A DNA stretch of 64,000 nucleotides from Salvelinus alpinus (taxonomy: Eukaryota > Chordata > Actinopteri > Salmoniformes > Salmonidae): assembly GCF_045679555.1 (NCBI RefSeq), contig NC_092087.1, positions 84,434,129 through 84,498,128 of the forward strand, in the 5' to 3' direction. Below the pieces are notes generated by a model that saw only the letters and a list, made by a program, of their open reading frames with translations, made no database searches and had not been told where the DNA came from. Shown piece by piece: positions 13,491 through 63,240 of the stretch (within the stretch, counting starts at the first letter, position 1; every line of letters begins with the position of its first letter). The position numbers and the translations under genes were made by a program.

Positions 13491-13492
13491 AA

Positions 13493-23898: not shown

Positions 23899-24017
23899 TA
23901 CAAATATCAAAGAGCTATTTTAAAGCTGTCTCAGAGGTCAGCTTCAGGTGGTCCTCTAACGAATTGGATGGTCTCACTTCTCTTGGTCAGGGCCTCATCC
24001 CTCTCTTGCACAGCTTT

Positions 24018-27625: not shown

Positions 27626-30099
27626 TGTGGGAGCGGGATGAAGAAACCCATGTGCACCATGACAGAGAAGCCTGTAACAGAGCTGTTTATTACTGTGTCA
27701 GTGTGAAAGTAGGGAATTGGCTAGGGAAACTGACAGATCATTAACGTTACATTGCCATACTGACTAATACAACTCACACATTTAATATATGAACATACAA
27801 ACACCATATTACGATTACGGACTAACATTTTAGGCTTGAACAAATATTGTGTTGCAATTCTGACATACAATAATACCTTTCAGAGTTTTGGCAATTTCAT
27901 CTCAACAACAAAAAAGAACGAACACCAAACGGCCTGTGAGGAGTGCTACATGAAAAAGCATAACACCGTATAAAAACTCTGAAGTCAAGGAAACCAGAAA
28001 GAGGTATCCTGTACGTTTTCAAGTTAAAAGTCTCCATTCTCTATTACTCCCCAGTTGAGTTTACTTCACATTTACGTAGATAATGTAATGGATTTGTTTG
28101 CCAGCGTGAGTCTAGACAGCACTAGCTGTATTATGCCTACAACAGTTTAGTTCCAGTCCGCTAGGTGTTTCTCTACAGTATGGGTAGATCTCTGGGTGAC
28201 TTGGACATCCCCATGCATGCACCTTATCAAAGGGTGGGTCTAATCGTGAATGCTGATTGGTTAAAACCGCATTTCAGCCTGTGTCTATTCCATAAGTTAC
28301 CAGCAGCTAAATCTATGACCTTAAAATGCCTATTTACTCTGTTCCATCTGACTGTGTGTAACGGATGTGAAATGGCTAGCTAGTTAGCGGGTACGCGCTA
28401 ATAGCGTTTCAATCAGTTACGTCACTTGCTCTGAAACCTAGAAGTATGGTTCCCCTTGCTCTGCAAGGGTCGCGGCTTTTGTGGAGCGATGGGTAACGAC
28501 GCTTCGTGGGTGTCAGTTGTTGATGTGTGCAGAAGGTCCCTGGTTCGCGCCCGTGTCGGGGCGAGGGGACGGTCTAAAGTTATACTGTTACATGTGCAAT
28601 CCACTGTCTCATCAGCCCAGCCAGGCACTTTATAAACTTGATCTCCACTATAACAAGCATCTAGACATTATCTCACATTTCGTTTAGTCTAACATTTAGT
28701 TTTCAACAGCGGAGATTTGTATAAACCTTGCTGACTGTCTCTCCGACATTTGCAACATTGTTTATATATTCAAATTCGATATCCAGCTGTCCCATTAGTA
28801 ATGAAAGTGTTGGGAGTCGGGAGGAGACTGACAGGCAGCGTTTCTCAGCCAGTCGAAGTCATTAAATCAGCTGGCATCATTTTTATGGATATATACAAAG
28901 AAATGTCAATTGAAAAAGGTGAAATGAAACGAAGTGCAGCTAGTTTGCAGTCTTTCCAGCTTCAGTTTGAAGTGAATGTGTTAGCTTTGTTGTTGGCTAG
29001 CTCCTCTGAACAACCGTGTCCTGACGAGTGAGCACATTTTCTATGCCAGGCGAAATCGCTTCTCATTAGCTCATTGTTATGGATGTATCCAAATAAATGT
29101 CAGAAATGCAAATGCAGCTACTTTGCTGTTATTCTGACTAAGTTAGCCGTAGTTGGCTAGCTAGCAAGCAAGGGATAGGAACGTGGCCAGCCAGTGTGGC
29201 AATGGAACATTTAGAATGAACAACTGGGTCGCGTCCATAGATACAGAACAAAAAGACTGAACGACTGGGTCACGTCTCTAGCAACCGAACCGTCTCGGGC
29301 CTGACAACACCAGTGCCAATATATCGTCCAAATACCCGCATCTCGGGCATTATCACTTAAGTGACTAATTAAATATTGCACCTTCCCATTCTCTGGGCTC
29401 TGTCTGCAATCATAACCAGTAGTATAAACCAGGAATAATAAAACATAAATAATGATCGATGTTTGGTGAATCTATGAATTATGTATGACCACTGGAGCCT
29501 TTACCACAATTCTTTTTTCTATAATATTTTTAAACGTATTTAATCACTCAATCTTGCCAAAGCATATTCTGTGGGAGGGGTTAATATGAATTTAAAATAA
29601 TTTGACATGATTTATATGAATCGGGGTATGAACATATGGACTTTGAAATGAATAAGGGAGAGGTTAAATGTAGGCTAGTCTAAAATAAGCTTATTCCCAC
29701 ACTTTACAATAACTGTTGCAGTGGTCTTAGGTAGTCTCCCTATAGGCTGTTCCCTCCATTGTGACACTGCTGCCCAGTTGAAGAGCTTGTGATCTGCATG
29801 CAGCACCACGCGCCTTAGTAAAAGCACCCCTCAGCCTCAGAAGACGCCCTTCTGGAGGCATGTAGCCACGGAGTCATTAGACCCTAATTTAGGTCTATTT
29901 GCCTACTAGCCAAATAAAGTGCAGAGCATGCATGATGCGTGCAACTCATCATTCCAACATATTTGAACATTTAATTCATCCTTCATGAAAAACTACACCT
30001 GATGCTTCAATTAAGCAGGAAACAACACTTATTATAACAGATGTGTAGCACTGTAAGACACGTGTTTCTCTGTTGTTGTTTTAAACCCGTTTTATTCTC
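27626..30099. other. Outer part of left arm, no recognised gene
   Basis: It mirrors 57681-60435. The open frame at 28750-29031 is not supported by any family resemblance, and its mirror copy is interrupted by a different frame, so I do not call it. The stretch contains the left-only insertion at 28357-28592. Confidence 0.5.
28357..28592 (+). mobile_element. TGTAAC...GTTACA element with tRNA-like box B, left-arm-specific copy
   Basis: It has perfect terminal hexamers TGTAAC and GTTACA, 4-base direct repeats TGTG on both sides, and an internal segment with ctggttcgcgcc that resembles a pol III box B. The mirror position in the right arm (near 59716) is empty, so it was inserted after the arms separated. 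It shares its whole length with 41192-41430. The class (short LTR-like or tRNA-derived element) is not settled. Confidence 0.75.
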
Positions 30100-30547
30100 A
30101 GGACCAGGACTACAACACTGAGTATTGGGACACAGGCCAACAACATATCCTGGTCTCTATTCTCAGGACCAGGACTACAACACTGAGTATTGGGACACAG
30201 GCCAACAACATATCCTGGTCTCTATTCTCAGGACCAGGACTACAACATTGAGTATTGGGACACAGAGCAACAACATATCCTGGTCTCTATTCTCAGGACC
30301 AGGACTACAACATTGAGTATTGGGACACAGGCCACCAACAACATATTGGTCTCTATTCTCAGGACCAGGACTACAACATCGAGTGTTGGGACCCAGGCCA
30401 CCAACAACATATTGGTCTCTATTCTCAGGACCAGGACTACAACATCGAGTGTTGGGACCCAGGCCACCAACAACATATTGGTCTCTATTCTCAGGACCAG
30501 GACTACAACATCGAGTGTTGGGACCCAGGCCATCAACAACATATTGG
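30100..30547. repeat. 65/66-bp minisatellite, left arm
   Basis: About seven units of aggaccaggactacaacat ... attgggacacaggcc. The last units carry ccaccaacaacatattgg. Because some units are 66 bases, long frames stay open on both strands, but these are by-products. The right arm has about five units. Confidence 0.93.
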
Positions 30548-30927
30548 TCTCTTCTACATAATACAACTAAATATTTAAAAAATACATGTTTAAATAAATG
30601 AATATACAATCAGCAATGTAAAACAACATTCCAGATATGTTTTACAATGACATTTACATGCAATCATTTGTTCTGCGTAACAAATCACCAATAGTAAGGT
30701 ATAAGATATTATCAAGTGTATTTTCAGAGTGAAGAAAGAGAAGTTTGGTAGGAGAACTTACTGGCCGTGAGAAAACCGAAGAGTGGTGAGGTCTGTGGTT
30801 GACATGACCTATAAGTGCTGATGGGCAGAGCTGGCTTCCTGCCCCATGATGCCTCTCCCTAACAACCAACACATCATTCACTTCACAATAAAAATTTGTG
30901 AAAGTCTTTTTGGAGCACACTTAATAT

Positions 30928-32545
30928 ACAGTACCAGTCAAAATTTTGGACACACCTACTCATTCAAGGGTTTTTCTTTATTTTGACTATTTTCTACATT
31001 GTAGAATAATAGTGAAGGCATCAAAACTATGAAATAACACATATGGAATCATTGTTAAACAAATCAAAATATATTTGATATTCTTCAAATTAGCCACCCT
31101 TTGCCTTGATGAAAGCTTGGCACACTCTTGGAATTCTCTCAACCAGCTTCATGAGGTAGGCACCTGTAATGCATTTCAATTAACAGGTGTGCCTTGTTAA
31201 AAGTTAATTTGTGAAATGTATTTCCTTCTTAATGTGTTGTGCTAATCAGTTGTGTTGTGACAAGGTAGGGGTGGAATACAGAAGATTTGGTAAAAGACCA
31301 AGTCTATATTACTGCAAGAACAGCTCAAATAAGCAAAGAGAAATGACAGTCCATCAAGACTTTAAGACATGAAGGTCAGTCAATCTGGAAAGTGCAATCG
31401 CAAAAATCATCGAGCGCTTTGATGAAAATGGCACTCATGAGGATCGCCACAGGAAAGGAAGACCCAGAGTTACCTCTGCTGCAGAGGATAGGTTCATTAG
31501 AGTTACCAGCCTCAGAAATCGGTAATTAACTGCACCTCAAATTGCAGCCCAAATAAATGCTTCACAGAGTTCAAGTAACAGACACATCTCAACATAACTG
31601 TTCAGAGGAGACTGTATGAATCAGGCCTTCATGGTCGAATTGCTGCCAAGAAACCACTACTAAAGGACACCAACAAGAAGAAGAGACTTGCCTGGGCCAA
31701 GAAACACGAGCAATGGACATTAGACTTGTGGAAATCTGTCCTTTGGTCTGATGTGTCCAAATTTTAGATTTTTGGTTCCAAAAATCTTTGTGAGACACAG
31801 AGTAAGGGAAAGGGGGATACCTTGTCAGTTGTCCAACAGAATGTATTCAACTGAAATGTGTCTTCAGCATTTAATCAAACCCCTCTGAAAAGGTGAACAG
31901 ATGATCTCTGCATGTGTGGATCCCACTGTGAAGCATGGAGGAAGAGGTGTTATGATGTAGGGATGCTTTTCTGGTGACACTTTCTGTGATTTATTTAGAA
32001 TTCAAGGCACACACTTAACCAGCAAGGCTACCACAGCATTCTGCAGCAATACGCCATCCCATCTGGTTTGCACTTAATGGGACTATCATTTGTTATTCAA
32101 CAGGACAATGACCCAAAACACGCCTCCAGGCTGTGTGAAGGCTATTTGACCAAGAAGGAGAGTAATGGAGTGCTGCATCAGATGACCTGGCATCCACAAT
32201 CACCCGACCTCAACCCAATTGAGATGGTTTGGGATGAGCTGGACCGCAGAGTGAAGGAAAAGCAGCCAAAAAGGCCTCCGCATATGTGGGAACTCCTTCA
32301 AGAATGTTGGAAAAGCATTCCAGGTCACTACCTCATGAAGTTGGTTGAGAGTATGCCAAGAGTGTGCAAAGCTGTCATCAAGGCAACCTTGAAGAATCTA
32401 ACATATATTTTGGTTACAACATGATTCCTTATGTGTTATTTCATTGTTTTGATGTCTTCACTATTATCCTACATGTAGAAAATAGTAAAAATAAAGAAAA
32501 ACCCTTGAATGATTAACTGTGGCCTAACTTTTCACTGGTACTGTA
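30928..32545 (+). mobile_element. Tc1-like element, left arm
   Basis: It is the same family as element A, with both ends present (cagtaccagtcaaaattttg and cactggtactgta). The transposase on the plus strand is broken. The catalytic part at 32068-32424 is still open and reads QQDNDPKHAS and NPIEMVWDELDRR, around the second Asp and the Glu of the DDE triad. A SINE-derived scrap of about 70 bases (31823-31892) interrupts it, and the same scrap is in the right-arm copy, so it predates the duplication. Confidence 0.88.
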
Positions 32546-33089
32546 CAATAAGGAAAGTTGAAAGATATACCCATTAAAATCATTGAAAACAAATGCAACA
32601 ACATAATATGACCACACTAATAGTATTTTTGACCACACTTCCTTATGGCTCATCAGCTACAGTAAAACCTGATGAAGGGTTTTAAAAATAAACATGTTCA
32701 CATCTTTAGGACCAAAGAAATTATACAAGAGGCCTATGTTCCTTATTAAAAAAATATTATTATAGATTTTAAAAGCATATAATTAATGTGATAAGCAGAC
32801 GTTGAACAGATAATGGATTTAATATTTATCTATTGAATACATACCTAATATTGTTGAAACATTATTCTACATTAAAGTTAATTCATGGATAATAGGAGTT
32901 AATGAAATAAGATACAGCTCTGAACACCTCCACCCCACCACACACCACTCCTACTCCAAGACACTGGATACATATGGATCCAGAGCTGCATATTATCTAC
33001 ACAGGTTACCATGGTAATCAGACTTAGTAAACTGTTAGAGAATGGGAGTTGGATGACTCTTTACAATATGTTTTCTATTGAACCTTTAT
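32546..33089. other. 3' flank of the left zinc-finger gene
   Basis: AT-rich and mirrored at 54787-55323. No gene seen. It probably contains the 3' UTR. Confidence 0.55.
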
Positions 33090-36000
33090 TTAGGGATCTG
33101 GAACCGGTGCCGGAGATGAAAGATGACATGTTTGTGTTTTCTGGTGTTGTTTCAGTGACCCTGAATGAGCAAATCTCTTTCCACATAGACAGGAGTAAGG
33201 CTTCTCTCCAGTGTGTGTGACCTGGTGTGTAGTCAGGTTTGAATCTCGAGCAAAACTCTTCCCACACTGATCACAGCTATAAGGCTTCTCTCCTGTGTGT
33301 ATGCGCTGGTGTGCAGTCAGGGTGGAATCTTGAGCAAAACCCTTACCACACTGATTACAGCTATAAGGCTTCTCTCCTGTGTGTATTCGTTGGTGTATAG
33401 TCAGGTATCCTGATTGATTGAAGCTCTTCCCACACTGATAACAGCTATAAGGCTTCTCTCCTGTGTGTATGCGTTGGTGTGTACTCAGGTTTCCTGATTG
33501 ATTGAAGCTCTTCCCACACTGATCACAGCTATAAGGCTTCTCTCCTGTGTGTATGCGTTGGTGTGTAACCAGGGATCCTGAATGATTGAAGGTCTTCCCA
33601 CACTGATCACAGCGATAATGCTTCTCTCCTGTGTGTATGCGTTGGTGTTTAGTCAGGTTTCCTGGTTGAATGAAGCTTTTCCCACACTGATCACAGCTAT
33701 AAGGCTTCTCTCCTGTGTGTATGCGTTGGTGTGTAACCAGGGATCCTGATTGATTGAAGCTCTTCCCACACTGATCACAGCTATAAGGCTTCTCTCCTGT
33801 GTGTATGCGTTGGTGTGTAACCAGGGATCCTGAATGATTGAAGGTCTTCCCACACTGATCACAGCGATAAGGTTTCTCTCCTGTGTGTATGCGTTGGTGT
33901 TTAGTCAGGTCTCCTGGTTGATTGAAGCTCTTCCCACACTGATCACAGCTATAAGACGTCTCTCCTGTGTGTATGCACTGGTGTGCAGTCAGATGTCCTG
34001 ACTTCCTGAAGCTCTTCCCACACTGAACACAGCTATAAGGTTTCTCTCCTGTGTGTATGCGTTGGTGTGAAGTCAGATTTCCTGAATGATTGAAACTCTT
34101 CCCACACTGATCACAGCTATAAGGCTTCTCTCCTGTGTGTATGTGTTGATGTGTAATCAGGGATCCTGAATGATTGAAGCTCTTCCCACAATGATGACAG
34201 CTATAAGGCTTCTCTCCTGTGTGTATGCGTTTGTGTGTAGTCAGACTTCCGGATAGTGCAAAGCTCTTCCCACACTCTTCACAGGTATAAGGCTTCTCTC
34301 CTGTGTGTATGCGTTGGTGTCTAGTCAGGTGTCCTGAGTTCCTGAAGCTCTTCCCACACTGAACACAGCTATAAGGTTTCTCTCCTGTGTGTATGCGTTG
34401 GTGTGAAGTCAGATCTCCGGATTGATTGAAGCTCTTCCCACACTGATCACAGCTGTAAGGCTTCTCTCCTGTGTGTATGCGTTGGTGTGTAGTCAGGTGT
34501 CCTGACTTCCGGAAGCTCTTCCCACACTGATCACAGCTGTAAGGCTTCTCTCCTGTGTGTATGTGTTGGTGTGTTGTCAGGGCTCTTGATTGACCGAAAG
34601 TCGTCCCACAATCAAAGCAGGGGTAAGGCCTCTCCCCTGTATGAATTCTCAGAGATTTTAAGGTTTTAGATGCAGCGAAACTCTTCCCACACTGAGAGCA
34701 GTGGTACGGTTTCTCTCCAGTGTGACTCCGCTGGTAAATTATCAATTCCCTCTGTTTAGCAAAACTCTTCCCACAGTCAAAGCAGCAGTGGTGAGGTTTC
34801 TTCCCTATACGTCTCTGCTGGTGTTTCTTGAGGTGTTCTGGTCTGGAGAGACTCTTCTCTTCCTTGTCAGCATCATGATGTTGTCGAGGCTCCCCAGATG
34901 ATAAGCCCTTCCCACTGAGAGAGCAACGATTAGGGCTGTCCCCTGTGAAACAAAGACATTGAATAGCATGGACATCTGAAATCAGGCTCCCTGATGGGAC
35001 TTTGATAAATGCTGAAAATTGGCAATCAAAATAAACGTACTACCACAGCAACCATGTTATTTTTTAGAAGCATATTTGATTCCGAATTCTGACATATAAC
35101 TTTTGTATGTGAAAACTATTTCTAAGATGCATACTTTCAGTTTTCCTGAACTCACTGCACTCGGTCAAAAGAAGGAAGCTTGTGCTGCTTGTGTTAGAAC
35201 ATGTAAAGATGAAATATGCCTCTATGAATCTGATGTAGGCCTTGACGTGTCCTAATAAATTGAGAAATTGCTCAGAAAACCAGGTGTTTTTAACAGCGTC
35301 GCTCCGATTGTCAACTTAAGCCAATTAAGATAAGCAGAGTAAGGTGTTTACATGACTAATGCCATAGTCGACCTACTGCCATAACTAGTTTAATGTCAAA
35401 ATATGATTGGGAATGTGTTGGATTCTAGCTTGAAATATACCTATTCATGTTACCATACTAGAACTTGTTGATTACTTTGCATGTAGAAGGAATGTATATG
35501 TTGGGGTCAATGGAGGGTGGATAGGAACTAAGTGTATGGAAAGTTACTGAGTGAGACAAGGGGGGGGGGGGGGTGCAGAAAGTTTACACTGTCTTTTGAC
35601 CAAGATACACTTTTAAAAAATGGGTGGAATGACCCAGATATTTTCATATATAATGAATCAATGGCAGAACTCTGATATGACGTCATTGTTTTATCCACTG
35701 AGTTCTGAAACTACGGTGCGCGACATTGAACAATGTTCCAATAAATCAACAACCTACTTTTTGGTTTTTTTCAAATTGCCAGCGACTTGAAGCTAAAATT
35801 GGGATCATGTTTACTGCGCTAATGACCATACCAACAGTAAAGGAGAGCAAAGTAGAATACAGTGAACTTAACAAAACAAGGAATTTGTGTTAAGTAATGC
35901 GGGCCGCCATCTTTATGCACCTCCGCTATCGTTACAGAAGCAGACTGTAGTCTAATCTACACACCGTGGTTCTTACTTAATGAAATAAAATCTCCATCTT

Positions 36001-38509
36001 CCTTCTCTTCTTCTTCTCCTCCTCCTCCTCTCTCAGTTCCACTCTGCCCCGGTGTTTTCCTGCAGTCAACCAGACCCAGCAGTAAAGCGGTACCCGGAGA
36101 CGTTTGACCTGGGGACTCCAGGAGGGTGGCGGGGAACGTGCTAGCTTTGTCCTGGTGGCCACAATAAATATTAAACATAGTTAATCATTAAACCAAATAT
36201 TTGATTAATTTAGTCTACACCTCTGATTGATGGGTGCATCCCTAGAATATCTCCTTTTTCCTCAAATGTTCAATCCTTCCCTACTTTAATCTAATAGCAT
36301 TGGGTTTGTAGAGGCATGAGCTAGTCAGAGTTTCCACCATATTTCTTTTACCAGTCATTACCTTTCAAAACGACTTGTGGCTAATTTGAGCGTATATACA
36401 TTTCGTAATGATTAGGTTGTTACGAGTGTACTGAGAAAAGTAGGACACATGACATGCCAGCAACTTTGAGAAAAAAACAGTAGTGCCAGGTAGTCACTAG
36501 TTACCACAGCCACAAAGTCATAAGCCACGCCTATTTCAACAATTTCTCGTCTTAAAATGTCATCTTAAACCTAACCTTAAGCACACTGCTAACCTCATGC
36601 CTGACCCTAACCTTAAAATAAATAAATAAACATTTTTGTTATCATGAATTTCTATGATATACATTTTTGACTTTGTTGCTGTGGTAACAACTGCCTTCCA
36701 TTTGTGAAGACATTTATTTTCATTGACATTACATATTAGAAGGCAATCGCTGGCAATTAATTATTGGGTTTAAACTTACAGGAACATGAGGTGTCTCACC
36801 CCACAAAAGGGGTGCTACAGAAAAGTTGGGAGCATTACGTGGACAGAATAAAAGCTTTGGATGGGTGGGTGATAAGCAGGCGAGGCAGATGGGAATGTAT
36901 GGCAGGGACTTAAGCCCCACGGTACCTATCCCTGTGAGTCCACCATGGCTACTCCCACCTCCAGTAGTTGATTTACAAGTGTTGGAGAGATTACGGAAAG
37001 ACAGGGAGGGGGTTTATCCATGAGAGTTCTTTAAAAGGCGACTGTTAACTGTAAATCAGTATTTTCTGCCCATATATACAGATGGATCAAAAGACCCAAG
37101 GACAGGTCAGACTGGACCAGCCTTTGTTGAACAGGAGAGTGGGGTGGCTGTCAGGAGACGTATTACAGACCAACTGGCTGTGTACATGGCAGAGCTGATG
37201 GCCATACTGTTGGCCTTGCAGTGGGCGGAGGAAATCAAACCAGACAGTGTAGTTATATGTTCTGTCTCATATGCTGTGTTGAGTTGGCAATCATTTAGCT
37301 CACATAGCAGACAAGGCCTGCTATACGAGGCCTGCTATATGAAGGAATTCAAATTCATGCCCAGGTGAGAGAAATGGGTGTTTATATAAGCTTTGCTTGG
37401 GTCCCGGCCCATGTGGGGGTGGAAGGGAATGAGGAAGTAGATGTACTAGCTAAACACGCCCTTAGGAGACAGGAGGTGGAGGTGCCAATGAGCAAGGCAG
37501 AGGCTAAGGGAATTACATGGGCAGTAGTGGTGCAGAGATGGCAGGAGCAGTGGAACAGTGACAATAAGGGCAGGAATTTATTCAGTGTTTATATTTGAGT
37601 CATTTAGCAGAAACTCTTATCAGAGCGACTTACAGGAGCAATTAGGGTTAAGTTGCTCAAAAGTACATTGACAGATTTTTCATCTAGTCGGCTCGGATTA
37701 CTGGCCCAATGCTCTAAACCACCAGGCTACCTGCTGCCCCTATTCCAGGTACAGAGTAAAGTAGGCGAGGATGGTAGGAATGGACAGAAGAGAGGAGGCT
37801 TTCCTTACAAGGCTAACAGTAGGGCACAGCCAGCTGAATAAGTTATTAAATGTGATAGCAAATCATTCAACAGGAAGATGTGATTACTGCCAGGAAACAG
37901 AGACAGTGGAGCATGTACTGATAGTGTGGGCAGTATGATAGGGAAAGAGAGAGTGATACTGTATAAGGGACAGTAGGGTACAGGAATTGAGTTTGATAAG
38001 CATACTGAGTTGAACATTGTTAGACACAGTCGCAAATATTTATGTTTTAAGAGAAACGGGCTGGCACATAGGATTTAGTTCCTCGATCCCTGTAGCTGGC
38101 CCACACTCCAGTACAGCAGGTGGTGTAATGTACCATAAAGTTAGATGCCAACCGCTGATAAACCCCACAGGAGATTATGTATTTTCAGTATCTGGTCATA
38201 TAATGGATAATCTGACTTTCAAAATCAGTGGAGGTGAACAAGTGCACACTTTGGGAGGAAGGAGAGATAATTAAGTAATGAAGGAGAGATAATTAAGTAA
38301 TAAACCCAGATTCCTGCATGATACATTAGTAGGTTACTTTTCTGAAGGAAAAAGAACAAAACAAGTTTTACCGTCATGTTTTTTTTTGTCCAGCCAATAA
38401 CACAGAACACTGGAATGTGGAGGATCAAAGATGATGAAAACTAGGCCTAGACATGTTATATAGCACAGCAGGCCTATACTGTTAAGGAAACCAGACTTAC
38501 CTGATCCAT
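33090..38509 (-). CDS. C2H2 zinc-finger protein, left paralogue
   Basis: Model: exons 38509-38501, 36151-35977 and 34942-33090 on the minus strand, joined in frame (phase 0, then phase 1), 678 aa. Exon 1 supplies only MDQ from an ATG just before a strong donor (CAG/gtaagt). An alternative start at 36178 in exon 2 keeps the same frame and has an in-frame stop upstream. The N-terminal part has [19 protein letters not shown] and an acidic [13 protein letters not shown] stretch, with no KRAB or SCAN domain. Then come a degenerate finger (CCFDCGKSF ... Tyr for the first His), a finger lacking one His (KTLKSLRIH), about 17 canonical fingers with TGEKPYSC linkers, and a last atypical one (YSCLCGK). 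The family consists of nuclear DNA-binding regulators; the target is unknown. The TAA stop overlaps an AATAAA signal. Oddity: the exon holding the ATG has lost its upstream acceptor (see findings). Confidence 0.88.
35035..35960. other. Intron of left zinc-finger gene
   Basis: It mirrors 50881-52875 but lacks the roughly 1-kb segment found only in the right arm. A G homopolymer lies near 35562. No other gene seen. Confidence 0.6.
36769..38290 (+). mobile_element. LINE 3' fragment with RNase H domain (I-type), left arm
   Basis: On the plus strand a degraded pol ORF reads IYTDGSKD (first catalytic Asp, about 37075), VYMAELMA (Glu), VICSVSYAV where an SDS with Asp is usual, and [19 protein letters not shown] (final Asp). 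A frameshift separates the two halves near 37365. A SINE interrupts it at 37592-37739, after which the tail continues with [13 protein letters not shown]. It lies antisense within the zinc-finger gene intron. Confidence 0.82.
37592..37739 (-). mobile_element. tRNA-derived SINE inside the LINE, left arm
   Basis: Minus-strand head ggggcagcaggtagcctgg and tail cagaaactctt/gataagagtttctgct type. The same insertion is at 49116-49264, so it predates the palindrome. Confidence 0.8.
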
Positions 38510-38619
38510 TGAGGAAGCTATTGTTCCTTTATCAGACAACTTGTCATATAAATGATATGTTACTTTTTTTTTAAAGTGTTCACAAGAGGTCTCCCGGGAG
38601 GCGTAATTTCCTTCAGCAG

Positions 38620-39410
38620 GAAGGGGCAATGTCATGAATATTCATGCCTCTCGCCATAAAACCTGTCGGGTGAATGGATGAGCGTTCTTAAGTGCTTGAC
38701 GTCACTGAGGCCTAAACGAAACAAAACATTGCGGACAATTTATCTCGCTTCGGATCTGTAACCAGTAGTAACCATCAACTTCAATGACAATGAACATAAA
38801 ATTAAAACACGAATCTGACATTCCTGCCCCACAATAACATTATCGCCGAGGGTGGCTTGCTAGCTAACTACAGTGTTTGATTAATTTCATCGTTTTGATA
38901 TAAAACAGCTTAGCTAGGTAGCAAAATGCTAACTCGCGGCGCTAGGTAACGTTACGTGAACGCGATTGTTACGTTAGTTAGACTCAGGAGCCTGTGGGTT
39001 TGATATGATTCCACCATGGGCAACAACAACTGGCTACTAGTTCGTTTTCTGACATATGTTCAACTCGGAGCTAGTTTATCCACTGACCACCGCATTTGGA
39101 ATGACAACTACTGACTAACATGTAACGTTAGCTGGCTAGTTAGCGTTCTGGCTCACACTGGCCATGCAATAACAAAATACACTACTATCTCGATTTAACA
39201 GCGACATTAGAGAAAGGAGGATCTAGGAATCCCATTCGTTAATGAATGGAGGAACGTATATCGCCTCACCCAGCAGACTGTCGAACAATCTCGTTCACGT
39301 TGTCATGCTGGGTCACAAGGTTGCTAAACGAATCGTCACTCAATCCCTTCTCATAGTCAGGGTATGAGTCGAGAAACCTGCATATTTTTCTCCGCAGTAG
39401 ATAATGTCCC
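38620..39410 (-). promoter_or_regulatory. Promoter-like 5' region of left zinc-finger gene
   Basis: A CpG-richer segment than its surroundings, with taacgttacgtgaacg motifs and a non-coding first exon candidate at 39270 upward that ends in a donor (CTGG/gtgagg on the minus strand). It mirrors 47410-48300. Confidence 0.45.
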
Positions 39411-39959
39411 GATTCCAAAGCTATACGATAGTACAGAGAACAAGTAAATTATATCACATATCGGAAAAGATTTGCAATGACCAAATTCTACTTATTCTTC
39501 TTCAGTGGGCTTTAATGACACCCACCATTAAAGCATCCAATATCTTGCATTACCGCCCCCAACTGGACTTCAGTATATATCCATTATACTTCAGGGACAG
39601 GCAGAATTGTAAGCAATTACTGTATTTCTCGGAGGAAAATGGGGGAGTGTCATGCTTTTTCAATTTCAGTCTGGGGAGGGATTAGTATTTTTTGATTTAG
39701 TCCAGGGGAGAGTCATGTAATGACAGTATTTGTCACCATTTTGGAACTTACGTATTGAATTACCATCCAACTTCAGGGTACAACCCTGCTCGCTCTCTCT
39801 CTCTGAATTCAATTTAAGGTTCATTAATGGCATGGGAAACATATGATTACATTGCCAAAGCAAGTGAAATAGATAATAAATAAAAGTGAAAAAACGATAA
39901 AAAATTGACAGTAAACATTACACTCACAAAAGTTCCAAAAGAATAAAGACATTTCAAAT
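39411..39959. other. Intergenic, mirrored
   Basis: No gene recognised. It mirrors 46916-47460. The 93-aa frame at 39404-39685 has no family resemblance. Confidence 0.5.
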
Positions 39960-40975: not shown

Positions 40976-41191
40976 ATTTTTGCGACGCTCACGCACACGA
41001 TGTGTCCGGTCTGGTCAGCATGTAATTGTCCCTAGAATTTCTAAGCAAACAGCTGGAGGCAGGGCTTTCTCCTATAGAGCTCAATTCTTATGGAATGGTC
41101 TGCCTACCCATGAGAGAGACGCAGACTCGGTCTCAACCTTTAAGTCTTTATTGAAGACTCATCTCTTTAGTAGGTCCTATGATTGAGTGTA

Positions 41192-48361: not shown

Positions 48362-48411
48362 GATATCATTTATATGACAAGTTGTCTGATAAAGGAACAA
48401 TAGCTTCCTCA

Positions 48412-51400
48412 ATGGATCAGGTAAGTCTGGTTTCCTTTTAACAGTATAGGCCTGCTGTGCTATATAAAATGTCTAGGCCTAGTTTTCATCATCTTTGATC
48501 CTCCACATTCCATTGTTCTATGTTATTGGCTGGACAAAAAAACCTACTAATGTATCATGCATAGGAATCTGGGTTTATTACTTCATTATCTCTCCTTCCT
48601 CCCAAAGTGTGCACTTGTTCACCTCCACTGATTTTGAAAGTCAGATTATCCATTATATGACCAGATACTGAAAATACATCATCTCCTGTGGGGTTTATCA
48701 GCGGTTGGCATCTAACTTTATGGTACATTACACCACCTGCTGTACTGGAGTGTGGGCCAGCTACAGGGATCGAGGAACTAAATCCTATGTGCCAGCCCGT
48801 TTCTCTTAAAACATAAATATTTGCGACTGTGTCTAACAATGTTCAACTCAGTATGCTTATCAAACTCAATTCCTGTACCCTATTGTGCCTTATACAGTAT
48901 CACTCTCTCTTTCCCTATCATACTGCCCACACTATCAGTACATGCTCCACTGTCTCTGTTTCCTGGCAGTAATCACACCTTCCTGTTGAATGATTTCCTA
49001 TCACATTTAATAACTTATTCAGCTGGCTGTGCCCCACTCTTAGCCTTGTAAGGAAAGCCTCCTCTCTTCTGTCCATTCCTACCATCCTCGCCTACTTTAC
49101 TCTGTACCTGGAATAGGGGCAGCAGGTAGCCTAGCGGTTTATAGCGTTGGGCCAGTAACCCGAGCCGACTAAGTGAAAAATCTGTCAATGTACTTTTGAG
49201 CAACTTAACCCTAATTGCTCCTGTAAGTCACTCTGATAAGAGTTTCTGCTAAATGACAAAAATATAAACACTGAATAAATGCCTGCCCTTATTGTCACTG
49301 TTCCACTGCTCCTGCCATCTCTGCACCACCACTGCCCATATCATTCCCTTAGCCTCTGCCTTGCTCATTGGCACCTCCACCTCCTGTCTCCTAAGGGCGT
49401 GTTTAGCTAGCACATCTACTTCCTCATTCCCTTCCACCCCCACATGGGCCGGGACCCAAGCAAAGCTTATATAAACACCCATCTCTCTCACCTGGGCATG
49501 AATTTGAATTCCTTCATATAGCAGGCCTCGTATAGCAGGCCTTGTCTGCTATGTGAGCTAAATGATTGCCAACTCAACACAGCACATGAGACAGAACATA
49601 TAACTACACTGTCTGGTTTGACTTCCTCCGCCCACTGCAAGGCCATCAGCTCTGCCATGTACACAGCCAGGTGGTCTGTAATTTGTCTCCTGACAGCCAC
49701 CCCACTCTCCTGTTCAACAACGGCTGGTCCAATCTGACCTGTCCTTAGGTCTTTTGATCCATCTGTATATATGGGCAAAAAATACTGATTTCCAGTTTCC
49801 AGTCACCTTTTAAAGAACTCTCATGGATCAACCCCCTCCCTGTCTTTCCGTACTCTCTTCAACACTTGTAAATCAACTACTGGAGGTGGGAGTAGCCATG
49901 GTGGACTCACAGGGATAGGTACCGTGGTGCTAAAGTCCCTGCCATTCATTCCCATCTGCCTCGCCTGCTTATCACCCACACATCCAAAGCTTTTATTCTG
50001 TCCACGTTATGCTCCCAACTTTTCTGTAGCTCCCCTTTTGTGGGGTGAGACACCTCATGTTCCTGTAAGTTAAAACCCAATAATTAATTGCCAGCGATTG
50101 CCTTCTAATATGTAATGGCAATGAAAATAAATGTCTTCACAAGTGGAAGGCAGTCGTTACCACAGCAACAAAGTCAAAAATGTATATCATAGAAATTCAT
50201 GGTAACAGAAATGTGTTTTTTATTTTAAGGTTAGGGTCAGGCATGAGGTTAGCAGTGTGCTTAAGGTTAGGTTTAAGATTACATTTTAAGAAGAGAAATT
50301 GTTGAAATGGGCGTGGCTTATGACTTTGTGGCTGTGGTAACTAGTGACGACCTGGCACTACTGTTTTTTTCTCAAAGTTGCTGGCATGTCACGTGTCCTA
50401 CTTTTCTCAGTACACTCGTAACAACCTAATCATTACGAAATGTATATACGCTCAAATTAGCCACAAGTCGTTTTGAAAGGTAATGACTGGTAAAAGAAAT
50501 ATGGTGGAAACTCTGACTAGCTCATGCCTCTACAAACCCAATGCTATTAGATTAAAGTAGGGAAGGATTGAACATTTGAGGAAAAAGGAGATATTCTAGG
50601 GATGCACCCATCAATCAGAGGTGTAGACTAAATTAATCAAATATTTGGTTTAATGATTAACTATGTTTAATATTTATTGTGGCCACCAGGACAAAGCTAG
50701 CACGTTCCCCGCCACCCTCCTGGAGTCCCCAGGTCAACCGTCTCCGGGTACCGCTTTACTGCAGGGTCTGGTCGACTGCAGGAAAACACCGGGGCAGAGT
50801 GGAACTGAGAGAGGAGGAGGAGGAGAAGAAGAAGAGAAGGAAGATGGAGATTTTATTTCATTAAGTAAGAACCATGGTGTGTAGATTAGACTACAGTCTG
50901 CTTCTGAAACGATAGCGGAGGTGCATAAAGATGGCGGCCCGCATTACTTAACACAAATTCCTTGTTTTGTTAAGTTCACTGTATTCTTCTTTGCTCTCCT
51001 TTACTGCTATTTTGGTATGGTCATTAGCACAGTAAACATGATCCCAATTTTAGCTTCAAGTCGCCGGCAATTTGAAAAAAAAAAAAAAAGTAGGTTGTTG
51101 ATTTATTGGAACATTGTTCAATGTCGCGCACCGTAGTTTCAGAACTCAGTGGATAAAACAATGACGTCATATCAGAGTTCTGCCATCTTTATGAACTTTA
51201 GTCATTCATTGATTAATTATATATGAAAATATCTGGGTCATTTGGCCAAGTGTAACTTGGTCAAAAGATTTTACCATTCTGTAATAAAGAGCACATGTTC
51301 AACTTCACAAAAAACAAGACATTGAATAAAAATATTACTACACTAAGTGCCTATGTGCCAAATAAAGTAACAGTGTTGACCGTAACGGGACTACTGAAAA

Positions 51401-54400
51401 CAACAAAACCACCAGATTACATGGGTAAAATAGTCCTTTAAATGAACCATAACACCGCTTGTGACAGGGGGATTGGAAGGTTGTTTTGTGAGACAAGGGG
51501 TGGCAATTGAATGCAATCTTCACCAAAAAATGTAATTGTAAAACATTTCTAGCATGTCTATGTATGGGGAGAGGGTTGACTTGCTCAGTTCTGCACCACA
51601 AAACAGCAATAAATTGATAAAAAGAGTAGAACCACCTGCTTTTACTCTGATTTTGACTATTAGATGTTCAATGTTTGTTTTCAAAACATATTTTTTAAAG
51701 GAATAGTTTCACCATATTAAAACGAGAGTTCAGTTCATGTAACAGGGTTGACCTTAAAATGAGGGACAGACGTAAATTAATTACTAATCACATCCATAGT
51801 AACCTTCAGAAATGACTTTGTCAAAGCAACAAAATAACTAGTGCTTTACAATGAGTATGTTTACATGTGTTAGGTTCTGAACAAACAGTAAAAACTCAGA
51901 CAACTAGGAGAGGCTCAAACCAAGATTATTCACCCACTGGGTCATACAGCTGCAAAGATTACACAAGCACATATATTTATACCCTCCTACTAGGCGGAGT
52001 CAACTCCTTGCACAGCTAGACAGCCAACACATCTTTGTTGCTAGGCAGGAACTTAATTGTTTCCTCTCATTGGTGTTGTCATGGCCTTGCCTGATGCTAG
52101 AACCCTTGTGGGCGTGGAAGTATATGTGTCAAATAGGACTGTTTCTTCTCACTTCATCAGCCTACCACAAATTCCTCGCTCCTCTCTAATCCACAGCTGT
52201 CCAATTTATCAGTGACTGAAACCAGACTGTTGCCCTTTGCCTCCCTCCTTAGGAAATAACATGTTTTGACAGTGTAAACTTTCTGCACCCCCCCCCTTGT
52301 CTCACTCAGTAACTTTCCATACACTTAGTTCCTATCCACCCTCCATTGACCCAAACATATACATTCCTTCTACATGCAAAGTAATCAACAAGTTCTAGTA
52401 TGGTAACATGAATAGGTATATTTCAAGCTAGAATCCAACACATCCCCAATCATAATTTGACATTAAACTAGTTATGGCAGTAGGCCGACAATGGCATTAG
52501 TCATGTAAACACCTTACTCTGCTGATCTTAATTGGCTTAAGTTGACAATCAAAGTGACGCTGTTAAAAACACCTGGTTTTCTGAGCAATTTCTCAATTTA
52601 TTAGGACACGTCAAGGCCTTCATCAGATTCATAGAAGCATATTTCATCTTTACATGTTCTAGCACGAGCAGCGCAAGCTTCCTTCTTTTGCTCGAGTGCA
52701 GTGAGTTCAGGAAAACAAAGTAAGCATCTTAGAAATAGTTTTCACGTACAAACGTTATGTCAGAATTCGGAATCAAATATGCTTCTAAAAAATAACATGG
52801 TTGCTGTGGTAGTACGTTTATTTTGATTGCCAATTTTCAGCATTTATCAAAGTCCCATCAGGTAGCCTGATTTCAGATGTCCATGATATTCAATGTCTTT
52901 GTTTCACAGGGGACAGCCCTAATCGTTGCTCTCTCAGTGGGAAGGGCTTATCATCTGGGGAGCCTCGACAACATCATGATGCTGACAAGAAAGAGACGAG
53001 TCTCTCCAGACCAGAACACCTCAAGAAACACCAGCAGAGACGTATAGGGAAGAAACCTCACCACTGCTGCTTTGACAGTGGGAAGGGTTTTGCTAAACAG
53101 AGGGAATTGATCATTTACCAGCAAAGTCACACCGGAGAGAAACCGTACCACTGCTCTCAGTGCGGGAAGAGTTTCGCTGCATCTAAAACCTTAAAATCTC
53201 TGAGAATTCATACAGGGGAGAGGCCTTACCCCTGCTTTGATTGTGGGACGACTTTCAATCAATCAAGAGCCCTGACAACACACCAACACATACACACAGG
53301 AGAGAAGCCTTACAGCTGTGATCAGTGTGGGAAGAGCTTCCGGAAGTCAGGACACCTGACTACACACCAACGCATACACACAGGAGAGAAGCCTTACAGC
53401 TGTGATCAGTGTGGGAAGAGTTTCAATCAATCAGGAGATCTGACAACACACCAACGCATACACACAGGAGAGAAGCCTTATAGCTGTGATCAGTGTGGGA
53501 AGAGCTTCAGGAACTCAGGACACCTGACTAGACACAAACGCATACACACAGGAGAGAAGCCTTATACCTGTGAAGAGTGTGGGAAGAGCTTTGCACTATC
53601 CGGAAATCTGACTACACACAAACGCATACACACAGGAGAGAAGCCTTATAGCTGTGATCAGTGTGGGAAGAGCTTTAATCATTCAGGATCCCTGATTACA
53701 CATCAACACATACACACAGGAGAGAAGCCTTATAGCTGTGATCAGTGTGGGAAGAGTTTCAATCATTCAGGAAATCTGACTTCACACCAACGCATACACA
53801 CAGGAGAGAAACCTTATAGCTGTGTTCAGTGTGGGAAGAGCTTCAGGAAGTCAGGACACTTGACTGAACACCAGCGCATACACATAGGAGAGACTTCTTA
53901 TAGCTGTGATCAGTGTGGGAAGAGCTTCAATCAACCAGGAGACCTGACTAAACACCAACGCATACACACAGGAGAGAAGCCTTATCGCTGTGATCAGTGT
54001 GGGAAGACCTTCAATCATTCAGGATCCCTGGTTACACACCAACGCATACACACAGGAGAGAAGCCTTATAGCTGTGATCAGTGTGGGAAGAGCTTCAATC
54101 AATCAGGAGACCTGACTACACACCAACGCATACACACAGGAGAGAAGTCTTATAGCTGTTATCATTGTGGGAAGAGCTTCAGGAACTCAGGACACCTGAC
54201 TGCACACCAGCGCATACACACAGGAGAGAAGCCTTATAGCTGTGATCAGTGTGGGAAGAGCTTCAATCAATCAGGAGACCTGACTAAACACCAACGCATA
54301 CACACAGGAGAGAAACCTTATAGCTGTGATCAGTGTGGGAAGAGCTTCAATCAATCAGGATACCTGACTATACACCAACGAATACACACAGGAGAGAAGC

Positions 54401-54786
54401 CTTATAGCTGTAATCAGTGTGGGAAGGGTTTTGCTCGAGATTCCACCCTGACTGCACACCAACGCATACACACAGGAGAGAAGCCTTATATCTGTGATCA
54501 GTGTGGGAAGAGCTTCAATCAGTCAGGAGACCTGATTACACACCAACGCATACACACAGGAGAGAGACCTTATAGCTGTGATCAGTGTGGGAAGAGTTTT
54601 GCTCGAGATTTCACCCTGACTACACACCACCTCACACACACAGGAGAGAAATCTTACTCCTGTCTATGTGGAAAGAGCTTTGCTCATTCAGGGTCACTGA
54701 AAAAACACCAGAAATCACAACCATGTCATCTTTTATCTCCCTCCTCTCTGGCACCGGTTCCAGATCCCTACATAAAGTTTCAATAG
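48412..54786 (+). CDS. C2H2 zinc-finger protein, right paralogue
   Basis: Model: 48412-48420, 50690-50864 and 52910-54786, joined in frame (phase 0, then phase 1), 686 aa. The first coding exon is the end of 48362-48420, which has both a good acceptor and a strong donor (CAG/gtaagt). It adds MDQ to [16 protein letters not shown] in the next exon. An alternative start at 50663 keeps the frame. The N-terminal region is acidic and has no KRAB or SCAN domain. Then follow a dead finger (FDSGKGF, first-pair Cys changed to Ser), a finger lacking a His, about 17 canonical C2H2 fingers with TGEKPYSC linkers, and an atypical last one (YSCLCGK). Likely a nuclear DNA-binding regulator; target unknown. 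Compared with the left paralogue, fingers 12-17 differ by whole-finger replacement and the stop has moved downstream by five residues (YIKFQ). Both frames are intact, so both may be expressed. Confidence 0.9.
48575..50068 (-). mobile_element. LINE 3' fragment with RNase H domain (I-type), right arm
   Basis: Mirror of 36769-38290. The first part at 49778-49488 reads [14 protein letters not shown] and [11 protein letters not shown], the second at 49491-49249 [19 protein letters not shown]. The same Val replaces the expected Asp (ICSVSCAV) and the same frameshift lies between the halves, so the LINE was already dead before the duplication. Confidence 0.82.
49116..49264 (+). mobile_element. tRNA-derived SINE inside the LINE, right arm
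   Basis: Mirror of 37592-37739, with head ggggcagcaggtagcctag. Confidence 0.8.
50865..52909 (+). other. Last intron of right zinc-finger gene
   Basis: GT-AG intron with a right-arm-only segment at about 51266-52268. Part of that segment (51869-52258) is bounded by direct repeats ACATGT. The remainder (51270-51860) holds no recognised gene. Confidence 0.75.
51869..52258. mobile_element. Insertion bounded by ACATGT repeats (LTR-like?)
   Basis: 390 bases between perfect 6-base repeats ACATGT (51863-51868 and 52259-52264). The sequence starts gttaggttctgaacaaacag and ends ctccttaggaaata. It is present only in the right arm. I cannot tell its class; the ends could also be read as tgttagg...aaca, like an LTR. 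Confidence 0.5.
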
Positions 54787-55323
54787 AAAACATATTGTAA
54801 AGAGTCATGCAACTCCCATTCTTTATCAGTTTACTAAGTCTGATTACCATGGTAACCTGTGTAGATAATATGCAGCTCTAATTCATATGTATCAAGCTTC
54901 TTGCAGTAGGAGTGCTGTGTGTGTGTGGTGGTGGGGTGGAGGTGTTCAGAGCTGTATCTTATTTCAGTAACTCCTATTATCCATGAATTAACTTTAATGT
55001 AGAATAATGTTTCAACAATATTAGGTATGTATTCAATAGATAAATATTAAATCCATTATCTGTTCAACGTCTGCTTATCACATTAATTATATGCTTTTAA
55101 AATCTATAATAATATTTTTTTTATAAGGAACATAGGCCTCTTGTATAATTTCTTTGGTCCTAAAGATGTGAACATATTTATTTTGAAAACCCTTCATCAG
55201 GTTTTACTGTAGCTGATGAGCCATGAGGAAGTGTGGTCAAAAATACTATTAGTGTGGTCATATTATGTTGTTGCATTTGTTTTCAATGATTTTAATGGGT
55301 ATATCTTTCAACTTTCCTTATTG
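54787..55323. other. 3' flank of the right zinc-finger gene
   Basis: Mirror of 32546-33089. No gene seen. Confidence 0.55.
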
Positions 55324-56960
55324 TACAGTACCAGTGAAAAGTTAGGCCACAGTTAATCCTTCAAGGGTTTTTCTTTATTTTGACTATTTTCTACATGTAG
55401 GATGTACATGTACATGTAGGATAATAGTGAAGACATCAAAACAATGAAATAACACATATGGAATAATGTAGTAACCAAAATATATGTTAGATTCTTCAAG
55501 GTTGCCTTGATGACAGCTTTGCACACTCTTGGCATACTCTCAACCAACTTCATGAGGTAGTGACCTGGAATGCTTTTCCAACATTCTTGAAGGAGTTCCC
55601 ACATATGCGGAGGCCTTTTTGGCTGCTTTTCCTTCACTCTGCGGTCCAGCTCATCCCAAACCATCTCAATTGGGTTGAGGTCGGGTGATTGTGGATGCCA
55701 GGTCATCTGATGCAGCACTCCATTACTCTCCTTCTTGGTCAAATAGCCTTCACACAGCCTGGAGGCGTGTTTTGGGTCATTGTCCTGTTGAATAACAAAT
55801 GATAGTCCCATTAAGTGCAAACCAGATGGGATGGCGTATTGCTGCAGAATGCTGTGGTAGCCTTGCTGGTTAAGTGTGTGCCTTGAATTCTAAATAAATC
55901 ACAGACAGTGTCATCAGCAAAGCATCCCTACACCATAACACCTCTTCCTCCATGCTTCACAGTGGGATCCACACATGCAGAGATCATCTGTTCACCTTTT
56001 CAGAGGGGTTTGGTTAAATGCTGAAGACACATTTCAGTTGAATACATTCTGTTGGACAACTGACAAGGTATCCCCCTTTCCCTTACTCTGTGTCTCACAA
56101 AGATTTTTGGAACCAAAAATCTAAAATTTGGACACATCAGACCAAAGGACAGATTTCCACAAGTCTATTGTGCATTGCTCGTGTTTCTTGGCCCAAGCAA
56201 GTCTCTTCTTCTTGTTTGTGTCCTTTAGTAGTGGTTTCTTGGCAGCAGTTCGACCATGAAGGCCTGATTCATACAGTCTCCTCTGAACAGTTATGTTGAG
56301 ATGTGTCTGTTAGTTGAACTCTGTGAAGCATTTATTTGGGCTGCAATTTGAGGTGCAGTTAATTACCGATTTCTGAGGCTGGTAACTCTAATGAACCTAT
56401 CCTCTGCAGCAGAGGTAACTCTGGGTCTTCCTTTCCTGTGGCGGTCCTCATGAGTGCCATTTTCATCAAAGCGCTCAATGGTTTTTGCGATTGCACTTTC
56501 CGGATTGACTGACCTTCATGTCTTAAAGTCTTGATGGACTGTCGTTTCTCTTTGCTTATTTGAGCTGTTCTTGCAGTAATATAGACTTGGTCTTTTACCA
56601 AATCTTCAGTATACCACCCCTACCTTGTCACAACACAACTGATTAGCACAAACACATTAAGAAGGAAATACATTTCACAAATTAACTTTTAACAAGGCAC
56701 ACCTGTTAATTGAAATGCATTACAGGTGCCTACCTCGAAGCTGGTTGAGAGAATTCCAAGAGTGTCCCAAGCTTTCATCAAGGCAAAGGGTGGCTAATTT
56801 GAAGAATATCAAATATATTTTGATTTGTTTAACAATGATTCCATATGTGTTATTTCATAGTTTTGATGCCTTCACTATTATTCTACAATGTAGAAAATAG
56901 TAAAAATAAAGAAAAACCCTTGAATGAGTAGGTGTGTCCAAACTTTTGACTGGTACTGTA
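55324..56960 (-). mobile_element. Tc1-like element, right arm
   Basis: Mirror of 30928-32545. The open minus frame at 55820-55353 keeps QQDNDPKHAS and NPIEMVWDELDRR. The N-terminal piece at 56601-56359 reads ARTAQISKEKRQSI. The same SINE scrap interrupts it near 56010-56075. Confidence 0.88.
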
Positions 56961-57354
56961 TATTAAGTGTGCTCCAAAAAGACTTTCACAAATTTGTATT
57001 GTTAATCAAATGATGTGTTGGTTGTTAGGAAGAGGCATCATGGGGGCAGAAAGCCAGCTCTGCCCATCAGTACTTATAGGTCATGTCAACCACAGACCTC
57101 ACACTCTTCGGTTTTCTCACGGCCAGTAAGTTCTCCTACCAAACTTCTCTCTCTTCACTCTGAAAATACACTTGATAATATCTTATACCTTACTATTGGT
57201 GATTTGTTACGCAGAACGAATGATTGCATGTAAATGTCATTGTAAAACATATCTGGAATGTGGTTTTATGTTTTCTTCATTTGTTTTACATTGCTGATTG
57301 TATATTCATTTATTTAAACATGTATTTTTTTATATTTAGTTGTATTATGTAGAA

Positions 57355-57680
57355 GAGACCAGGATATGTTGTTGGCCTGGGTCCCAACACTCGATGTTGT
57401 AGTCCTGGTCCTGAGAATAGAGACCAGGATATGTTGTTGCCCTGTGTCCCAATACTCAATGTTGTAGTCCTGGTCCTGAGAATAGAGACCAGGATATGTT
57501 GTTGCCCTGTGTCCCAATACTCAATGTTGTAGTCCTGGTCCTGAGAATAGAGACCAGGATATGTTGTTGGCCTGAGTCCCAATACTCAATGTTGTAGTCC
57601 TGGTCCTGAGAATAGAGACCAGGATATGTTGTTGGCCTGGGTCCCAACACTCAATGTTGTAGTCCTGGTCCTGAGAATAA
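57355..57680. repeat. 65/66-bp minisatellite, right arm
   Basis: About five units, against about seven in the left arm. The ccaccaacaacatattgg unit type of the left arm is absent here. Confidence 0.92.
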
Positions 57681-58585
57681 AACAGGTTTAAAACAACAAC
57701 AGAGAAACACGTGTCTTACAGTGCTACACATCTGTTATAATAAGTGCTTTTTACTGCTTTATTGAAGTATCAGGTGTAGTTTTTCATGCAGGATGAATTA
57801 AATGTTCAAATATGTTGGAATGATGAGTTGCACGCATCATGCATGCTCTGCACTTTATTTGGCTAGTAGGCAAATAGGTCTACATTAGGGTATAATGACT
57901 CTATGGCTACATGCTTCCAGAAGGGCGTCTTCTGAGGCTGAGGGGTGCTTTTACTAAGGCGCGTGGTGCTGCATGCAGATCACAAGCTCTTCAACTGGGC
58001 AGCAGTGTCACAATGGAGGGAACAGCCTATAGGGAGACTACCTAAGACCACTGCAACAGTTATTGTAAAGTGTGGGAATAAGCTTATTTTAGACTAGCCT
58101 ACATTTAACCTCTCCCGTGTTCATTTCAAAGTCCATATGTTCATGCCCCGATTCATATAAATCATGTCAAATTATTTTAAATTCATATTAACCCCTCCCA
58201 CAGAATATGCTTTGGCAAGATTGAGTGATTAAATACGTTTAAAAATATGATTTAAAAAAGAATTGTGGTAAAGGCTCCAGTGGTCATACATAATTCATAG
58301 ATTCACCAAACATCGATCATTATTTGTTTCATTATTCCTGGTTTATACTACTGGTTATGATTGCAGACAGAGCCCAGAGAATGGGAAGGTGCAATATTTA
58401 ATTAGTCACTTAAGTGATAATGCCCGAGATGCGGGTATTTGGACGATATATTGGCACTGGTGTTGTCAGGCCCGAGACGGTTCGGTTGCTAGAGACGTGA
58501 CCCAGTCGTTCAGTCTTTTTGTTCTGTATCTATGGACGCGACCCAGTTGTTCATTCTAAATGTTCCATTGCCACACTGGCTGGCC
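57681..58585. other. Outer part of right arm, before the gap
   Basis: Mirror of about 29190-30099. No gene recognised. Confidence 0.55.
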
Positions 58586-58685
58586 NNNNNNNNNNNNNNN
58601 NNNNNNNNNNNNNNNNNNNNNNNNNNNNNNNNNNNNNNNNNNNNNNNNNNNNNNNNNNNNNNNNNNNNNNNNNNNNNNNNNNNNN
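58586..58685. other. Assembly gap, 100 N
   Basis: Exactly 100 N. The bases on both sides (ctggctggcc and cacgttcctatcc) are contiguous in the mirror position of the left arm near 29185-29200, with one base of overlap. Confidence 1.
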
Positions 58686-60435
58686 CACGTTCCTATCCCT
58701 TGCTTGCTAGCTAGCCAACTACGGCTAACTTAGTCAGAATAACAGCAAAGTAGCTGCATTTGCATTTCTTTAAGCAGTTTTCTAGTGACATTTATTTGGA
58801 TACATCCATAACAATGAGCTAATGAGAAGCGATTTCGCCTGGCATAGAAAATGTGCTCTCTCGTCAGGACACTGTTGTTCAGAGGAGCTAGCCAACAACA
58901 AAGCTAACACATTCACTTCAAACTGAAGCTGGAAAGACTGCAAACTAGCTGCACTTCGTTTCATTTCACCTTTTCAATTGACATTTCTTTGTATATATCC
59001 ATAAAAATGATGCCAGCTGATTTAATGACTTCGACTGGCTGAGAAACGCTGCCTGTCAGTCTCCTCCCGACTCCCAACACGTTCATTACTAATGGAACAG
59101 CTGGATATCGAATTTGAATATATTGTAGCGACCCGCACAGACAGCTGTGTGTTATGTGTTAGGCTAGTAGGTGGTTGTGTTGTACTGACCAGTACCCAGT
59201 GTTCGCGGGGTCCGACATGTCAATCAACCTGCTATCTGCCAATCACGGGAATGCCTGGAATGTTCTGATGCCGGGCATCCTGGCGGTTGGCGGAGTGGCG
59301 TGGAGGGGGGTTGGGCAGGGGGATGGAGCATTGGAAGTTAAGAGCAGGTTTCGCCTTTGTTCTCTCTCTTACGTCTGGGCTTCACAAGAGAAGGTCACGA
59401 TTGGCTTGTGGGTTATCTGTCATTTATTTGGCGTGTGCTACGGCCCAAACAGTAGCCTGTGTAAAGTTGGTTTAATAAACCGTCAATTCGCAAACTCAAG
59501 CCTCTGTCTGGACAATTGTTCATTTATGATCTAGTCAGGTCATTACAATATAAACAATGTTGCAAATGTCGGAGAGACAGACAGCAAGGTTTATACAAAT
59601 CTCCGCTGTTGAAAACTAAATGTTAGACTAAACGAAATGTGAGATAATGTCTAGATGCTTGTTATAGTGGAGATCAAGTTTATAAAGTGCCTGGCTGGGC
59701 TGATGAGACAGTGGATTGCAAAGTCAGATGGAACAGAGTAAATAGGAATTTTAAGGTCATAGATTTAGCTGCTGGTAATTTATGGAATAGACACAGGCTG
59801 AAATGCGGTTTTAACCAATCAGCATTCACGATTAGACCCAGCCTTTGATAAGGTGCATGCATGGGGATGTCCACGTCACCCAGAGATCTGCCCATACTGT
59901 AGAGAAACACCTAGCGGACTGGAACTAAACTGTTGTAGGCATAATACAGCTAGTGCTGTCTAGACTCACGCTGGCAAACACATCCATTACATTATCTACC
60001 TAAATGTGAAGTAAACTCAACTGGGGAGTAATAGAGAATGGAGACTTTTAACTTGAAAACGTACAGGATACCTCTTTCTGGTTTCCTTGACTTCAGAGTT
60101 TTTATACCGTGTTATGCTTTTTCACAGGCCGTTTGGTGTTCGTTCTTTTTTGTTGTTGAGATGAAATTGACAAAACTCTGAAAGGTATTATTGCATGTCA
60201 GAATTGCAACACAATATTTGTTCAAGCCTAAAATGTTAGTCCGTAATCGTAATATGGTGTTTGTATGTTCATATATTAAATGTGTGAGTTTTATTAGTCA
60301 GTATGGCAATGTAACGTTAATGATCTGTCAGTTTCCCTAGCCAATTCCCTACTTTCACACTGACACAGTAATAAACAGCTCTGTTACAGGCTTCTCTGTC
60401 ATGGTGCACACGGGTTTCTTCATCCCGCTCCCACA
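58686..60435. other. Outer part of right arm, after the gap
   Basis: Mirror of 27626-29190. No gene recognised. Contains the right-only LTR-like insertion. Confidence 0.55.
59124..59547 (+). mobile_element. Solo LTR-like insertion, right arm only
   Basis: 424 bases with TG...CA ends (tgtagcgaccc and ggtcattaca), 4-base direct repeats ATAT (59120-59123, 59548-59551) and an internal aataaa (ggtttaataaaccgtc) about 75 bases from the end, as in an LTR. The mirror site in the left arm near 28770 is empty. The 119-aa frame across it is not a gene I recognise. Confidence 0.75.

Positions 60436-61062: not shown

Positions 61063-63240
<2,178 letters not shown>

Follow-up and report, generated by a model that had tools for sequence, protein, structure and literature searches.

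The Salvelinus alpinus locus considered here raises the question of whether a near-palindrome of about 33 kb, with a zinc-finger exon in each arm, is a real chromosomal structure, how old such a structure might be, and whether its two arms still pass sequence to one another. The window (the whole stretch of DNA that was analysed, 64,000 nucleotides of contig NC_092087.1) contains the palindrome and sequence on both sides of it.

Geometry of the arms and continuity of the assembly

The initial annotation described mirrored arms around a 426-base spacer, and both self-BLAST and alignment recover that arrangement (Table 1). Among the opposite-strand matches listed, the inverted chain spans 27623/60438 to 43080/43507; the spacer measures 426 bases between these BLAST ends and 420 bases in the trimmed alignment, and the inner arm edges fall within a LINE remnant. 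The longest inverted match among those listed is 5.4 kb (94.6% identical, from 30223), so long that a chance origin of the arm homology is not at issue, and the homology extends past the transposon copies within it. Two facing arrays of a 58-base minisatellite lie about 2.2 kb apart (22725–23902 and 26126–27628), and the second of these stops exactly at the outer edge of the left arm.

Library matches were to a LINE (RVT_1) and a Tc1-like element (DDE_3), both under the Pfam cut-off, and no other element was matched; element classes other than these two are assigned from their ends. Another copy of the arms' Tc1-like sequence lies outside the palindrome (776–1884 and 2239–2408; about 77–87% identical).

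Table 1. Coordinates of the arms, spacer, insertions, low-divergence tracts and finger exons in the window
Feature	Coordinates	Strand	Remarks
Left arm of inverted duplication	27629–43083	+	Self-BLAST and trimmed alignment
Right arm, inverted copy	43504–60432	-	Self-BLAST and trimmed alignment; includes 100-N join 58586–58685
Spacer between arms	43084–43503	.	LINE-like piece and hairpin inside
LINE-like piece in spacer	43440–43480		95% to 43662–43702; inverted match to 42925–42885
Perfect 9-base hairpin	43486–43505		Abuts inner edge of right arm
Nested element in LINE, left copy	41191–41430	+	TGTA target-site duplication
Nested element in LINE, right copy	45162–45401	-	Same element as left copy
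Third LINE copy, beyond palindrome	61065–62375	-	Empty site of nested element
Left-only insertion, 238 bp	28357–28594	+	TGTAAC...GTTACA ends; TGTG target-site duplication
Right-only insertion, solo-LTR-like, 424 bp	59124–59547	+	TGTA...TACA ends; ATAT target-site duplication
Right-only piece, 999 bp	51269–52267	-	GA microhomology at ends
Right-only piece, 282 bp	46127–46408	-	CT microhomology at ends
Minisatellite excluded from arm comparison	30093–30552 / 57354–57679		About 7 and 5 units
Low-divergence tract 1	28807–29439	.	2 mismatches/632
Low-divergence tract 2	31983–32417	.	0/435; within Tc1-like remnant
Low-divergence tract 3	38977–40439	.	6/1459; overlaps CpG-rich stretch
Low-divergence tract 4	42408–43061	.	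2/653; LINE remnant adjoining centre
Left zinc-finger exon	33090–34942	-	Open; 20 finger units; splice-acceptor-like start; no in-frame ATG
Right zinc-finger exon	52910–54786	+	Open; 20 finger units; no in-frame ATG

Two 100-N gaps are present (19474–19573 and 58586–58685), the second of them within the right arm. The gap-free contig between them (19574–58585) passes through the palindrome centre, and no gap separates the two arms. The flanks of the 58586–58685 join abut, with one shared base, when set against the left arm; therefore probably no sequence is missing there. The first gap lies between the two copies of a direct repeat (11986–19473 and 19574–27061), which end exactly at either side of it; over 7488 bases these copies have 18 differences (0.24%), seven of which cluster in a single run at 13258–13268, and zero indels. 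This pair is probably an unmerged contig overlap or a false duplication. A gap between the members of a duplicated pair on one scaffold is a published sign of false duplication, according to the available text of that study (PMC9516828); it is present between the direct-repeat copies and absent between the palindrome arms.

If the 0.24% of the direct repeat is taken as an approximate gauge of the difference expected from alleles or errors, the arms are nine times as divergent, and they carry independent insertions (described below); they are thus too divergent to be alleles, and a comparison of this sort makes it very unlikely that they are two haplotypes of one locus folded together. A misjoin between paralogous loci also seems unlikely, although it is harder to exclude than one between haplotypes. 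The general possibility of an assembly artefact, in which haplotypes or paralogous loci were misjoined head to head, draws some plausibility from the probable false duplication in the window and from the N join within the right arm, but the contig that crosses an ungapped centre, the ninefold divergence relative to the false duplication and the independent insertions make it very improbable. The initial annotation had also considered an inversion artefact unlikely, and contig continuity, divergence, arm-specific insertions and a nested element common to both arms all agree with that judgment. With a probable false duplication on the same scaffold, copy-number claims at this locus nevertheless need reads.

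Order of the insertions and age of the duplication

Both arms carry the same nested element within a LINE, and a LINE copy outside the palindrome has the corresponding empty site; the nested insertion is therefore older than the duplication. Two other insertions are confined to one arm each, as had been noticed originally, and each has a target-site duplication (both 4-base duplications were read by eye). The left-only insertion is 89.6% identical to the nested element common to both arms. The opposite arm retains the empty site in both cases, with a one-base difference for the left insertion. Two more pieces, which end in microhomologies and are present only in the right arm, may be left-arm deletions.

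When the finger array, one minisatellite and the large pieces confined to a single arm are left aside, a global aligner gives 288 differences in 13,149 aligned bases (2.19%; 97.8% identity), with 51 gap events, six of which coincide with the contig join or with the boundaries of alignment blocks. The differences between 27629–43083 and 43504–60432 comprise 132 transitions and 156 transversions, a proportion of transitions that seems low for neutral vertebrate DNA. If neutral substitution in each lineage is taken to proceed at 1–3 changes per billion sites a year, the 2.8% divergence found over most of the arms (see below) would place the duplication roughly 5–14 million years ago. The inverted chain, the divergence, the shared nested element and the arm-specific insertions together uphold the original proposal of a single ancestral segment that was inverted and has since aged. 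Each copy has undergone its own changes since the duplication (the two insertions with target-site duplications, and the substitutions between the arms), and as read from the DNA the mirror structure appears to be real and old, and of an ordinary kind.

Patchy identity between the arms

Windowed identity along the arms, which the initial annotation had proposed to examine, proves to be strongly patchy. The mismatch variance is 41.4 around a mean of 11.0 per 500-base window, a value that 2000 shuffles never reached; seven of the 2000 reached the longest run of identity (506 bases), and none reached the fifth-longest (374 bases). A two-state model of the mismatches improves on a single rate by 25.7 log units (the best of 18 settings), whereas the best of 60 shuffled controls, scored on two settings, was below zero. 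A two-state segmentation with rates that we chose divides the arms into four low tracts, which total 3179 bp with 10 mismatches (0.31%), and five high segments, which total 9970 bp with 278 (2.79%), the latter being about three-quarters of the compared bases; the last high segment is just 22 bases long and lies at the inner edge.

Sporadic gene conversion between the arms is a candidate for the cause of this pattern. Constraint is a poor explanation for tracts 2 and 4, which are situated in transposon remnants, and conversion is favoured there. On the other hand, the low tracts hold eight indels (2.5 per kb) and the remaining sequence 43 (4.3 per kb), so that the tracts are depleted of indels by a factor of only 1.7 but of substitutions by a factor of 9, and this lesser depletion of indels weakens the case. 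Of these eight indels, five are accounted for by the contig join and by changes in the length of homopolymers or dinucleotide repeats; three, one of them a 17-base difference, are of neither sort. Arm-to-arm conversion, which had been suggested originally, is thus upheld by the patchiness and by the position of tracts 2 and 4 and is held back by the indels; on the pattern of differences we would put it at about two chances in three.

The same old inverted duplication might instead have evolved with no conversion, the patches reflecting constraint or local mutation rate. The indels agree with this, as does the CpG-rich stretch that overlaps tract 3, a tract that may be under constraint, but the ninefold contrast in substitutions and the transposon remnants that hold tracts 2 and 4 do not, and this reading, although tenable, seems rather unlikely.

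It is almost certainly not the case that the arms form a long-lived palindrome held alike by strong ongoing conversion in the style of mammalian sex chromosomes. Low tracts are present and one of them adjoins the centre, as strong conversion might produce, but 9970 of the 13,149 compared bases have diverged by 2.79%. Identity above 99%, the mark of a strongly gene-converted palindrome, is confined to the four low tracts, and the G+C content of the arms (42.5 and 42.3%) is not raised relative to the flanks (41.5 and 44.2%). The divergence of about three-quarters of the bases and the unraised G+C likewise speak against the earlier suggestion that the structure has persisted through ongoing homogenisation or intrachromosomal selection.

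The reading that we prefer, with a probability of about 0.6, is that of an inverted segmental duplication that formed once and is now decaying with occasional conversion, and not of a strongly homogenised palindrome. A single event would have created the ~16-kb inverted segmental duplication, whose inner edges fall in a LINE remnant and are separated by a short spacer. The geometry itself is directly visible; its origin may have been fold-back or template-switch repair. Two features of the spacer are suggestive only of such an origin: a 41-base LINE-like piece with a further copy some 0.2 kb away on the right and an inverted copy some 0.5 kb away on the left, and the hairpin (perfect 9-base hairpins occur at five places in the window, from nine overlapping hits, and two of these places are mirror images of one another). 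The arms would then have evolved mostly separately, through the substitutions, transposon insertions, small deletions and finger gains and losses seen in the alignment, while gene conversion, to judge from the patchy identity, may have carried a few patches from one arm to the other. The finger exons would have stayed open under constraint throughout, coming to differ from finger 13 on.

Zinc-finger exons and related systems

The two finger exons both point away from the centre, and are 617 (left) and 625 (right) codons long, stop included. Each is a C2H2 array in a single open exon, with 17 PF00096 stretches; the count of 20 finger units comes from our own pattern. The right copy lacks one cysteine of finger 1 through loss. 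The 387 codons that remain collinear contain 29 differences, 13 of them synonymous and 16 nonsynonymous (dN/dS 0.31). The probability of 16 or fewer nonsynonymous changes among 29 without constraint is 0.003, in a test that finger-to-finger exchange can distort, and no frame-breaking indels are present where 5.7 would be expected (P = 0.003), an expectation that the non-coding indel rate may overstate. The finger exons are kept open under constraint. From finger 13 onward the arrays lose collinearity, in accord with the finger turnover noticed at the outset: the best partners of left fingers 17 and 18 are right fingers 16 and 17, respectively, and right finger 18 has no close counterpart in the corresponding position.

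The initial annotation placed a gene in each arm; an open finger exon is indeed present in each, but no start codon could be established. Neither exon contains an in-frame methionine, and no first exon was established upstream: ATG-to-donor candidates of the right phase number five on the left and eight on the right, and none is supported. The 61 upstream stop-to-stop frames listed are of at least 38 amino acids; ten of them were searched against Pfam, and one matched reverse transcriptase and the other nine had no match.

A 60-amino-acid open frame (39269–39448, minus strand) that ends in a donor-like GTGAGG was considered as an upstream coding exon and rejected, as splicing it in silico gives an out-of-frame product. 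It has no Pfam match and one weak match among solved structures (E 0.23), and it is predicted to be helical at low confidence (mean pLDDT 67.7). This frame is located in a CpG-rich stretch and lies mostly within a 374-base run that is identical between the arms. A scan of the window with a set of acidic motifs gave no match, and ARAGORN detected no tRNA gene there.

Among the systems compared, the nearest fish case is that of the Atlantic herring inversion breakpoints, which according to the available text are flanked by inverted copies of 8–60 kb, with cores of 7–21 kb and 95–99% identity, that contain one gene or none (PMC11499932). The likeness lies in the inverted copies; in herring these sit at the two ends of large inversions, whereas here only a short spacer separates them. 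Primate X palindromes are similar in having long arms that contain coding sequence, a short centre and some signs of arm-to-arm exchange, but are far more homogenised: their arms differ by a median of about 0.047% and their G+C is raised (PMC8981503), against 2.19% and no rise here. In yeast, a short inverted repeat near a double-strand break can prime an inverted copy by fold-back, as that report's accessible text describes (PMC10622511). The 9-base hairpin that touches the right inner edge recalls this process, but the mirror axis here lies off the hairpin, and the event is old and known from sequence alone. The zebrafish FiNZ-ZNFs, described in the text available as unique to cyprinids (PMC10547256), are alike in their long single-exon finger array, their duplication and their changing fingers; they differ in that no N-terminal domain has been established for the exons here. 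The titles and abstract openings of a limited literature collection contained no description of this locus or of a salmonid palindrome with zinc-finger genes.

The locus is a well-preserved but ordinary case of a kind that is already known. It illustrates how zinc-finger exons can multiply in the form of mirror copies, with nested insertions giving the order of events, and shows what is probably partial arm-to-arm exchange in a decaying palindrome. It could be imagined further that the palindrome is a small two-copy engine in which conversion exchanges patches of intronic and central sequence between the arms but spares the finger arrays, which diverge from finger 13 on; this is improbable, but if true the locus would encode a pair of zinc-finger proteins whose targets are related without being the same. 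Independently of such an arrangement, the exons, if expressed, may give rise to a pair of related proteins that differ in part in the DNA they prefer.
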